Origin: Verrucomicrobiaceae bacterium | Lineage (GTDB): Bacteria > Verrucomicrobiota > Verrucomicrobiia > Verrucomicrobiales > Verrucomicrobiaceae | Length of the DNA stretch: 64,000 bases | Assembly (NCBI GenBank): GCA_015075365.1 | Contig: JABTUN010000002.1 | Span: 558,001 to 622,000, forward strand | Direction of reading: 5' to 3' | Shown here: positions 22,189 to 25,805 of the stretch, piece by piece | How positions within the stretch are numbered: position 1 is the first letter of the stretch | How the letters are laid out: each line of letters begins with the position of its first letter | The notes under the pieces: model-generated | The model's input: the letters and a program-made list of their open reading frames with translations, nothing else | Told to the model about the DNA's origin: nothing | The model's database searches: none | Translations under genes and position numbers: made by a program

Positions 22189-24426
22189 TCAGTGAGAGGT
22201 AAGAGGTGAGATGTGAGACGTGAGAGGTGTCACTTCAGTCGCTTGTGTCCTTTGAGTCCCTTCTTCGGTGATGAGGCTCTCGAACTGGCTGAGCACGCTC
22301 GTCAGCGAAAAATGCCGCTCAATGCGCTCACGGGCGGCGAGATCCTGAGTGAGACCGTTTTCGAGAATTTCGAGGCAGGCAGTCGCGAGGGCCTGCGGAT
22401 CACGCGGTGGCACGAGGCGACCGGTTTCGCCCATGACCCAGCGGGTGTCGCCGATGTCAGTCGCGACAACGGGCACCGCGCAGGCCATCGCCTCGCCGAC
22501 GACATTCGGAAAGCCTTCGCCAAAAGCCGAGGAGGACACGGCGATGTTCAACGAGGCGGTGAGTCCTGGGAGATCGTGACGTTCACCGAGGACGGTGATG
22601 TAGGGTGGGACATTGAGTTGATCGGTTTCGGCGCCGACGATGATGAAGCGCGTCTCAGGTCGCTTGGCGTGGATGATCTTCGCGGCTTCGATGAAGGTCG
22701 GATAGTCCTTCATCGGCGCGTTGCGGCCGAAACGGCCGATCAGGCCACGCGTGGGCGTGCGCGGCTGCCATTTGGTGACATCAAAGCCATTCGCGATGAG
22801 CTGCGTCTTCACTTTGGCGTAGCCGATGGCCTCGTGCTGCTGCGAGCTGAGCTGGGAGTTGTAGGTGATGCGTTTTGGCAGCCAGGAAAGCCACGCGAGA
22901 GCGCGAATGACCATCGCGGAACCGCGTTTTTCGAGTTTCAGGTCGTAGAGGCTCTGGCGGATGTTCCAGATCATCGGCACCTGCTTGAGGCGCATGAACT
23001 TGGCAATGCTGGCGACGAAACAGCCATGGTACATCCAGCCCATGAGCACGTCCGGCTTCTCGCGACGCACGAGGAGGAAGAGCTTCCACAACGCGGACAG
23101 CGTCGGTTTGCCTGCGGGCATGTCGAGGCTGTGGACGTTCGGAAGACTGGCGGCGTGCTTGCCACCGGCGGTGAGGCTCACGACGACATGCTGGAGCTTC
23201 GTCAACCCGTTCACGAGCTGCGCCAGCATCATCTCCGCGCCGCCGCTGCCAAGGCCGGTGGTGATCCACATCACCTTTTTGCCAAGAAGTCGGCTCGTGC
23301 GTTCGATGAGGCGTTCGATGCTGAATTCGGCGACAATGCGGGAGCGTGTACTGTAGCCATCTCGCTCCGCGAGATGAGCAAAGCGTGGCCGCGCGGGCGA
23401 CACGTTGTCGAATTCGGTAAATTTGTCCGTGGTCGAAGCGCTCAGCTCCTCTCGCGGAGCGAGAGGGCTACTTTGCTTCGCGAATTCGAGCATGCACTTG
23501 GCTAGAGCCTCGTGGTCGCCGGCGGGGAAGATTTGAGCGGGATTGCCGATGATCCACGCGCTGTCGCCGACATCGCTGGCGATGCAGGGCACGCCGCAGG
23601 CCATGGCCTCGCCGATGACGTTGGAGAAGCCTTCTCCGAAGGCGCTGGAGTTCACAAGACAGTCGAAGGTGGCATAGACCGACGGCATGTCGCTCTGCGC
23701 GGGAAGCCAGGTGGCATTTACGCCGAGGGAGGTGGCGAGGTCACGCATTTGCTGCGCGTAGGCTTCATCGCCACTGCCGACGATGACGAAACGGGCGTTT
23801 GGAACAAGCGCAGCGGCTTTGAGGAAGGTCGCGTGGTCCTTCATCGGGCTGAGACGGCCGACGAGGCCGAAGGTGAGCGGATGCTCATGCGGCGAAGGCT
23901 TGAAGCGCTCGGTGTCGATGCCGTTGGGAACGACATGCGTCTTGTGCGCCGGGTAGCCGCGGGCGAGGTAGTAGTCGCGACCGGCCTTGGAGTTGCAGAT
24001 GATGACATCGGCGAAGCGGGCGAGGAGGCAGTTGAGGCGGAAGCTGAGTTTGCCGAGCGTGCCCCAGAGATGCGCGTCGGTCTGCGAGTCGCGCACGCCC
24101 CACACGACACGCGGGAAGCCGCAGAAGGGCTTCAGGAAGAGCGCCATGAGGTTCGATTCGGCGAGGTAGCCGTGGAGAACCTCCGGCTGGACGCTTCGGG
24201 CGGCCTTCACGAGGCGGAAGAAGAAGCCGAGCAGGTCCCAGCGGCTCTTTTTGCCGATGCAGATCGTTTTCACGCCGGCTTCGCGGAGGTTTGATTCAAA
24301 GGGTCCGCCGTAGAAATGCAGCACGGAGACTTCGTGGCCTTCGCGCACGAGTCCGGCGGCGAGGATCGAGAGCTGGCGCTGGGCACCGCCGTGGCCGAGA
24401 TCGCGGATGATGAAGGCGAGCCTCAT
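22189..24426 (-). CDS. Tandem GT4-GT4 glycosyltransferase (two enzymes in one chain)
   Basis: A 745-aa protein with two complete GT4 (GT-B fold) modules. Module 1 begins MRLAFIIRDLGHGGAQRQL and has the EX7E-type site FGEGFSNVIGEAMACGVP. Module 2 begins KVMWITTGLGSGGAEMML and has FGEGFPNVVGEAMACAVP. Each would transfer a sugar from a nucleotide donor to the growing glycan at the inner membrane. I chose ATG 24426 because it overlaps the flippase stop (ATGA); the frame extends 15 codons further without support. An inverted-repeat element encodes about 40 residues between the last helices of module 1. The C-terminus ends in a repeat-derived tail (PLTSHISPLTSH). Confidence 0.88.
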   Translation of the reverse strand: MRLAFIIRDLGHGGAQRQLSILAAGLVREGHEVSVLHFYGGPFESNLREAGVKTICIGKKSRWDLLGFFFRLVKAARSVQPEVLHGYLAESNLMALFLKPFCGFPRVVWGVRDSQTDAHLWGTLGKLSFRLNCLLARFADVIICNSKAGRDYYLARGYPAHKTHVVPNGIDTERFKPSPHEHPLTFGLVGRLSPMKDHATFLKAAALVPNARFVIVGSGDEAYAQQMRDLATSLGVNATWLPAQSDMPSVYATFDCLVNSSAFGEGFSNVIGEAMACGVPCIASDVGDSAWIIGNPAQIFPAGDHEALAKCMLEFAKQSSPLAPREELSASTTDKFTEFDNVSPARPRFAHLAERDGYSTRSRIVAEFSIERLIERTSRLLGKKVMWITTGLGSGGAEMMLAQLVNGLTKLQHVVVSLTAGGKHAASLPNVHSLDMPAGKPTLSALWKLFLLVRREKPDVLMGWMYHGCFVASIAKFMRLKQVPMIWNIRQSLYDLKLEKRGSAMVIRALAWLSWLPKRITYNSQLSSQQHEAIGYAKVKTQLIANGFDVTKWQPRTPTRGLIGRFGRNAPMKDYPTFIEAAKIIHAKRPETRFIIVGAETDQLNVPPYITVLGERHDLPGLTASLNIAVSSSAFGEGFPNVVGEAMACAVPVVATDIGDTRWVMGETGRLVPPRDPQALATACLEILENGLTQDLAARERIERHFSLTSVLSQFESLITEEGTQRTQATEVTPLTSHISPLTSH
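23353..23471. mobile_element. Miniature inverted-repeat element inside the glycosyltransferase gene
   Basis: The ends at 23353-23379 and 23445-23471 are inverted copies of each other, matching at 25 of 27 positions, and each end is itself palindromic around CTCGCTCCGCGAG. The 65-bp centre has no recognisable gene. A direct repeat ACT (23350-23352 and 23470-23472) may be the target duplication; with it, the net insertion is 120 bp, exactly 40 codons, which explains why the host gene stays open. This is the structure of a MITE or a protein-coding palindromic repeat. I did not find a second copy in the window by eye. Confidence 0.7.
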
Positions 24427-25805
24427 TTCGCGGCCTCCTTGCGACGGATGAGCGTGAGGCACCACAGGCACGCGACGATGGAGCTGATGCCATGCACGAG
24501 CGCGGTGGACAGGGCGATGCCGGCCACGCCCATGTTTTGCATGAGCAGCCAGTTGAGGCCCGCATTGCCGAAGAGCGCGGCGAACGAAAAGATCAGCATG
24601 AAGCGCGAGGCCTGCATGGAGACGATGACGCGAGCGGTGACGATGCCGAGGATGTAGAAGGGAATCTGCAGCGCTCCGAAGCGCAGTACATGCGCCACCC
24701 GCAACGTGTCCTCATGGTGGAAGGCACCGCGCTCGAACAGCAGGCCAACGATGGTCGGCGCGAAGACCTCCAGCAGCAAGGCCAGCGGCAGAGCGGCGCT
24801 GGCAATCGCGCTCACGCTGATAAGCAGCCGACGACGCAGCCCCTTCCAGTCGTTGCGCGCCACCTGGTCGGCGAAATACGGGAAGAGAACGTCCGCCAGC
24901 GGCCCGGCACAGACACCCAGAATGATCATGCAAAGCTTTTCCGAGTAGCTGAGCACCGTGACACTGCCCGCGGGCAGCCAGGAGGCCATCGTCTGGTCCA
25001 CCACGGCCGCGCTGGAGAAGGCAAAGCCGCCCACCAAAAAGGGCAGCGCGTTTTGCAACACCTGGCGCACGGACGGTTCCCACTTTCGCAGGCACACGCG
25101 CCACCAGCGGCGCTCGCGGGGAAACTGGCGCGCGATGGTCCAAAGCAGCGCGCAGCATTGCAGCCCGGCCCCCAGGTTGGTTCCAAACAGCAGCGCGTCC
25201 ACCGAAGGGGACTGACGATAAACCAAGATGCAGGCGATGATGGTCAGCGGCACCAGCAGCGGCGCGGCGGCGACCACGAGGAAGCGCTTGTCCGCGCGCA
25301 GCCAGGATCCAAGATGGTAGCTCAGTCCGAAACACAGCAGGAAAGGCAGCAATCGCGGCAGCATCTGCTGCGCGCGCTGGCGGTTGGCCTCTGAAAAGCC
25401 GTGCGCCAGGTGGTCCAGCAGCAAGTGCCCGGCCAGGATGATACCGATACCGATGACCAGCAGCGTGCCGAGGTGGGTCACGGCCACCTGCACACCGAGA
25501 CGATCCGCCCGGCGCACGCCACGCCGGTGCTTCAGTTCGACATACACAGGCAGAAAGGACTCCGGCAGGCCGCCGGCGAGCAGGGTGGCGGCAAAAGACA
25601 TGAAGCCAAAGACCAGCATGAAGGCGTCGATCTCATCCGCCACGCCGAAGGTGGAGGCCACAACTGCGTCCTTCACAAAGGAGACCACCTTGCTGGTAAG
25701 CGTCAGCACAAACACCATCGCCAGCCCTGAGATGAGGGCAGAACCTAGGCCCCGGGCCACAAGAGCGCGGACCGGGGCGGGCAGATGGGCTGAAACTGGA
25801 ATCAT
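24423..25805 (-). CDS. MurJ/MVIN-family lipid-linked oligosaccharide flippase
   Basis: A 460-aa polytopic membrane protein with about 12-14 hydrophobic segments and the MVIN/MurJ start (SKVVSFVKDAVVASTFGVADEIDAFMLVF), together with GLPESFLPVYVEL. MurJ proteins flip lipid II; relatives in EPS clusters carry other lipid-linked sugars, as Wzx does. Since it starts an exopolysaccharide gene run and overlaps the glycosyltransferase start by ATGA, a role in exporting the cluster's repeat unit is more likely than general cell-wall synthesis. Confidence 0.8.
   Translation of the reverse strand: MIPVSAHLPAPVRALVARGLGSALISGLAMVFVLTLTSKVVSFVKDAVVASTFGVADEIDAFMLVFGFMSFAATLLAGGLPESFLPVYVELKHRRGVRRADRLGVQVAVTHLGTLLVIGIGIILAGHLLLDHLAHGFSEANRQRAQQMLPRLLPFLLCFGLSYHLGSWLRADKRFLVVAAAPLLVPLTIIACILVYRQSPSVDALLFGTNLGAGLQCCALLWTIARQFPRERRWWRVCLRKWEPSVRQVLQNALPFLVGGFAFSSAAVVDQTMASWLPAGSVTVLSYSEKLCMIILGVCAGPLADVLFPYFADQVARNDWKGLRRRLLISVSAIASAALPLALLLEVFAPTIVGLLFERGAFHHEDTLRVAHVLRFGALQIPFYILGIVTARVIVSMQASRFMLIFSFAALFGNAGLNWLLMQNMGVAGIALSTALVHGISSIVACLWCLTLIRRKEAAK

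Follow-up and report, generated by a model that had tools for sequence, protein, structure and literature searches.

A REPIN in frame within a glycosyltransferase gene of a Prosthecobacter-like bacterium

Intragenic REPs and the present locus

Head-to-head dimers of GTAG REPs lying in frame within genes were reported in 2013, including in Opitutus terrae, a member of the Verrucomicrobia (Di Nocera, De Gregorio, and Rocco 2013, PMC3733652), and the kind of insertion described here is therefore already known. The same study noted that recB of X. campestris and of X. oryzae carries different REPs at nearly the same position, and assigned the intragenic repeats RPE-4 and RPE-6 of R. conorii to CGTC-type REPs, which have no dedicated transposase. 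The REPINs of Pseudomonas fluorescens SBW25 (Bertels and Rainey 2011, PMC3116915) are inverted doublets that form a hairpin with their spacer, occur alongside singlets, and are accompanied by a RAYT flanked by the same REP. The TnpA-REP proteins of E. coli, Stenotrophomonas, and Marinomonas are Y1 transposases that recognize single-stranded GTAG hairpins (PMC8266576).

The element that we analyzed lies in a 64-kb stretch of DNA (the window) from a Prosthecobacter-like genus of the Verrucomicrobiaceae. It shares with the GTAG REPs of Di Nocera et al. (2013) the head-to-head hairpin dimers in frame inside known genes and the association with RAYTs, although those inserts mostly span 20–30 amino acids versus 44 here. 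The O. terrae dimers (PMC3733652), which are likened by description, come from the same phylum but a different host genus. The proposal in that study that linkers and loops tolerate such inserts fits the present case. What is new here is the placement of empty and filled orthologs on a gene tree, the presence of several REP families at a single site, RAYT genes with the family on both sides, a second copy inside one gene, and a bias in reading frame. The element is also like the SBW25 REPINs in all the respects listed above, but the replicative units of SBW25 were described in extragenic space (PMC3116915), whereas about one-sixth of the sites here are coding-through. The first-pass annotation had compared the locus with the palindromic elements of Rickettsia (RPEs). 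These are a functional analogue, in that a palindrome is translated in frame within unrelated proteins whose orthologs lack it, but they belong to a different sequence superfamily, the likeness is one of mode of action, and the intragenic GTAG REPs (PMC3733652) are the nearer precedent.

Anatomy of the element and its family

The element is a 119-bp head-to-head dimer (23353..23471, unstranded) of two GTAG-headed 27-bp palindromes around a 65-bp spacer (23380..23444, minus strand). One arm (variant CATCTCG, GTAGCCATCTCGCTCCGCGAGATGAGC) occupies 23353..23379 on the plus strand, and the other (variant CCTCTCG, GTAGCCCTCTCGCTCCGCGAGAGGAGC) occupies 23445..23471 on the minus strand, where it forms the upstream REP of the mRNA and reads SSPLAPREE; both match the family consensus palindrome, GYAGYCMTCTCGCTCCGCGAGAKGARC, exactly. 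As the first-pass annotation had noticed, the inverted arms agree at 25 of their 27 positions, and both are palindromes in their own right; each folds into a hairpin with an 8-bp stem and a 3-nt loop. A repeat search of the window extends the inverted pairing to 33 nt at 88%, and no other head-to-head pair of GTAG hairpins occurs in the 64 kb. The 119 nt fold as RNA at −67.4 kcal/mol (z = −8.3 versus shuffles). The spacer varies between copies; its best in-genome score is with copy L002, at 61% identity.

Beyond the arms, monomer statistics and the listed copies define an outer flank on either side. On the minus strand, GCGAAGCAAA precedes GTAG at 23472..23481, and its last six bases, AGCAAA, are the family-conserved end; on the plus strand, GTGTACT precedes GTAG at 23346..23352. 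This is a variant form of AGTACA, which ranks second in frequency among the flanks, and it includes the ACT of the first-pass annotation. In a tabulation of 146 family monomers, AGCAAA lies outside GTAG in 54, with A at −3 in 97% and A at −1 in 93%. Because this flank is conserved across the family, the element probably extends beyond GTAG at 23472..23481. The two ends of the REPIN are not exactly definable, since comparison with the empty site shows an exchanged linker and not a clean join.

The expectation of many dispersed copies, some of them intergenic, was borne out: the genome that contains the window has 35 monomers, most of them intergenic, with GTAG or a close variant at the head, against 0 for a reversed-pattern control. 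The copies are head-to-head dimers of about 119 bp, many of 118–121 bp, together with single units. The palindrome was found in 12 of 15 genomes of the same genus (27 copies in G011 and 44 in G012) and in 0 of 7 genomes of other genera. Thus, short GTAG-headed palindromes are dispersed through the genome, pairs of them are inverted around a spacer to give a long hairpin, 90 of 108 surveyed sites are not coding-through, and two sites, the glycosyltransferase gene and a second DUF7133 copy in genome G009, are filled where relatives are empty. By published definitions (PMC3733652, PMC3116915) the element is a member of a GTAG REP family, and a REPIN when dimeric.

Two orthologous RAYT genes in sister species, on contig C157 of G011 and contig C42 of G012, encode proteins of 218–219 aa that are 72.6% identical and score above the cut-off for Y1_Tnp, and both genes have the window's REP family on each flank, as expected of a cognate RAYT. 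Judged from these sequences, a RAYT of this type is likely the mobilizer of the window's REPIN. A search of the window's own genome, a 95%-complete assembly, for a RAYT gene adjoining the same REP family found none, so recent movement in that genome is unsupported. Its nearest RAYT-like genes are 44–46% identical and have different REPs at their flanks, which makes the copies in this genome look like orphans; the closest (L066:1360-2167, contig C1 at ~1.2447 Mb) is flanked by GTAGTCCGGTTGCGCCGCAACCGGA and variants of it. The mechanism of TnpA-REP (PMC8266576) is assumed by analogy for the RAYT of the Prosthecobacter group.

The host gene and other in-frame copies

The host gene (22189..24471, minus strand) encodes a fused double GT4 glycosyltransferase of 760 aa with a conserved protein start near residue 16. 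Pfam finds Glyco_transf_4 and Glyco_trans_1_4 in two stretches each, and orthologs throughout the genus have the same double-domain architecture. The reading frame is open across the whole REPIN. An uninterrupted ortholog, which the first-pass annotation had named as a check, was found many times over: the closest orthologs (L082, L083, L084, and L087; 83–78% aa identity) and at least 10 more are free of the REPIN, and outgroup orthologs also lack the insert. At the site, the closest orthologs read EFKPSETRSRI or nearly so and distant ones AFQPHNPRQRI, whereas the window has EF, 44 residues, and TRSRI. In the ortholog alignment, the codons of residues 331–374 (AKQSSPLAPREELSASTTDKFTEFDNVSPARPRFAHLAERDGYS; 23350..23481, minus strand) replace KPSE of the closest orthologs. 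The earlier figure of a 120-bp, 40-codon net insertion therefore holds against real empty orthologs, with 44 residues in place of four, but the gain was not a clean addition, as a linker of about 12–15 bp was replaced.

That the element had become coding sequence without breaking the protein is upheld by the open frame, by the empty orthologs, and by dN/dS versus L082, whose values of 0.113 on the upstream side of the insert and 0.115 on the downstream side indicate equal purifying selection on both glycosyltransferase domains. An AlphaFold2 model of 759 residues (mean pLDDT 84) contains two confident GT4 domains, and Foldseek returns GT4 fold matches. Residues 336–371 are predicted to be disordered, with pLDDT below 50 that is partly due to the few aligned rows there, and lie between helices 319–333 and 374–381. 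From this model we infer that the insert forms a disordered loop, hydrophilic and exposed at the surface, with both domains left intact.

The site has been occupied more than once. L113 has a REPIN of the window's family there, in identical orientation and register, and L085 (genome G015) has a different GTAG REPIN, whose family is dispersed in G015 (26 matches). Because two unrelated element families occupy the site, at least two insertions are needed. In the gene tree, L113 and L085 fall outside the clade of the window and the empty orthologs. A clade of window and L113 is rejected (AU p 2e-7), which rules out a shared insert through such a clade, whereas the test does not reject a clade that unites the empty orthologs without the window (AU p 0.21), so that one ancient insertion followed by one loss, or else recombination, may account for the pattern. 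The spacers of the window and L113 are 64% identical, with a top score of 17.8 that lies little above the 14.7 of the best other copy. As far as these sequences go, the window and L113 inserts may reflect ancestry with loss, local recombination, or independent insertion.

Two other orthologs deserve mention. In the glycosyltransferase of Prosthecobacter sp. VE4 (L095), the second half clusters with L082 (99/99) and shares ~90% identity with the window, versus ~75% for the first half; its sequence suggests that recombination inside the gene is likely. In G017, the inter-domain linker of the ortholog carries an in-frame, REPIN-like inverted pair of GTAGGGACCCGCTGCG (L033:2578-2696). We did not count this insert as a third REPIN family, given just one weak further match in G017.

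To place the locus among others, coding status at 108 sites in about 12 genomes of the genus was called by a codon-usage through-frame test, calls based on ORFs only being dropped as too noisy; 17 sites are coding-through and 1 is borderline. Their hosts include a FAD oxidoreductase, sulfatases, an MFS transporter (in its central loop), Ser/Thr kinases, a TIR-NACHT-like gene, and a macroglobulin. Further in-frame copies in the genome that contains the window lie in a kinase, a DUF7133-cytochrome, and a FAD oxidoreductase. The upstream REP has two open frames, the third carrying TAG. In 13 of 14 separate cases it reads SS[PH]LAPR[DE]E or a close variant, and in 1 it reads KVAISLREMS, a bias (binomial p 0.002; 11 of 12, p 0.006, with paralogous cases merged) that comes from a post hoc test devised once the data had been seen. 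Elements of the same kind thus appear to have entered protein loops of the genus many times, almost always in one frame.

The DUF7133-cytochrome gene has one insert common to G000, G009, and G011 and nearly unchanged across these three species. In G009, the gene bears a further copy ~105 codons upstream of the first, and the spacers of the two are nearly identical; the upstream position lacks an insert in G000 and G001 and contains a different GTAG-type insert in G011. This pair provides good evidence that the element has moved inside coding sequence. L153 (G005) and L158 (G011) also carry short inverted repeats of other families, inserted between DDGVTFKA and DFLASEDRW in the loop that bears the second REPIN of G009.

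In-frame REPs or REPINs also lie in the activation loop (DFG to APE) of Ser/Thr kinases at L264:1497-1617 in G011 and at L270:1509-1535 and L273:1525-1551 in G009, where their position suggests a possible regulatory consequence. An in-frame REPIN lies within a TIR-NACHT-TPR gene of G001, possibly a defence gene (L288:1470-1588), and a frame in the window's own genome (L018:837-1950) has ~25 copies of a SLRSRR-type tandem repeat adjoining a REPIN.

Origin of the insert and its significance

We consider it very probable that the window's element is a REPIN moved by a RAYT and retained in frame in the GT4 gene as a tolerated, disordered loop. As a non-autonomous miniature element, the REPIN would probably travel in the form of single-stranded hairpin DNA, mobilized by a RAYT, a Y1/HUH transposase; the candidate substrate of the G011 or G012 enzyme is the single-stranded GTAGCCMTCTCGC hairpin. 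It would have entered a polysaccharide glycosyltransferase gene between the two helical elements that end the first glycosyltransferase domain, swapping out the linker for a net gain of 40 codons in frame, and would be translated into a hydrophilic, disordered surface loop with both domains still working. REPINs would mostly be purged from genes and kept when in frame in a tolerant loop, such loops would be hit repeatedly, and the survivors would be the frames that yield a soluble peptide. We infer the insertion by a RAYT, the translation in the cell, the neutrality of the loop, and the role of the enzyme.

The first-pass annotation described a MITE-like element flanked by ACT as a target duplication. 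A miniature mobile palindrome it is, but a classical DDE-type MITE with terminal inverted repeats and a 3-bp duplication is the least probable of the readings weighed here, its chances being negligible. The inverted repeats and the ACT adjoining both ends in the window are what such an element would show; its ends, however, are GTAG-headed and sub-palindromic, single arms occur as well as dimers, and the family is linked to Y1/RAYT genes. One ACT overlaps the element itself, taking in the final two bases of its CTAC, and the bases just outside GTAG belong to the family sequence, as the 146 monomers show, so the duplication is unsupported and the classical MITE was rejected. Only marginally less improbable is that the 40 residues are an ordinary ancestral linker with chance inverted repeats, deleted in relatives. 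The same insert in L113, and the permitted clade of empties without the window, could be read in that way, but the identical palindrome recurs at about 30 other places with unrelated surroundings, most of them intergenic, outgroup orthologs are without the residues, and L085 has an unrelated dispersed REP family there. The dispersed copies rule out this account in its simple form, and the outcome that the first-pass annotation had set against itself, a single copy with all orthologs carrying the 40 residues, was looked for and did not occur. An ancient REPIN insertion into the gene, with later losses, is possible.

It is also conceivable, although improbable, that the REPIN-derived loop or its mRNA hairpin was selected for a function such as spacing the glycosyltransferase domains or slowing translation between them. 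The strong RNA hairpin sits exactly at the border of structural units of the protein, three orthologs are filled at this site by two REP families, the DUF7133 insert has hardly changed in three species, and the peptide frame is biased. Nevertheless, most orthologs, the closest included, are equally constrained without the insert, the spacer shows poor conservation when the window and L113 are compared, and the recurrence is explained by tolerance and purging alone.

A broader proposal, which we offer tentatively and consider rather unlikely to hold, is that REPINs are a recurrent source of new protein loops in this genus. The palindrome would be "protein-compatible": its SS[PH]LAPR[DE]E frame would give a soluble loop, rich in proline and charge, so that the element could live inside genes, and the same loops would be recolonized, sometimes with altered regulation. 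If this is true, the loops colonized include the glycosyltransferase linker, the kinase activation loop, a C-terminal loop of sulfatases, and a propeller loop of DUF7133. The insertions that lie in frame in the activation loops of kinases provide specific candidates for a regulatory change brought about by such a small element. REPs are extragenic by name, and here one genus offers empty and filled sites, different REP families in the same loop, RAYT genes bordered by the family, and a strong frame preference. This makes the genus a workable system in which to ask when mobile DNA becomes protein and whether translatability shapes the sequence of the element.
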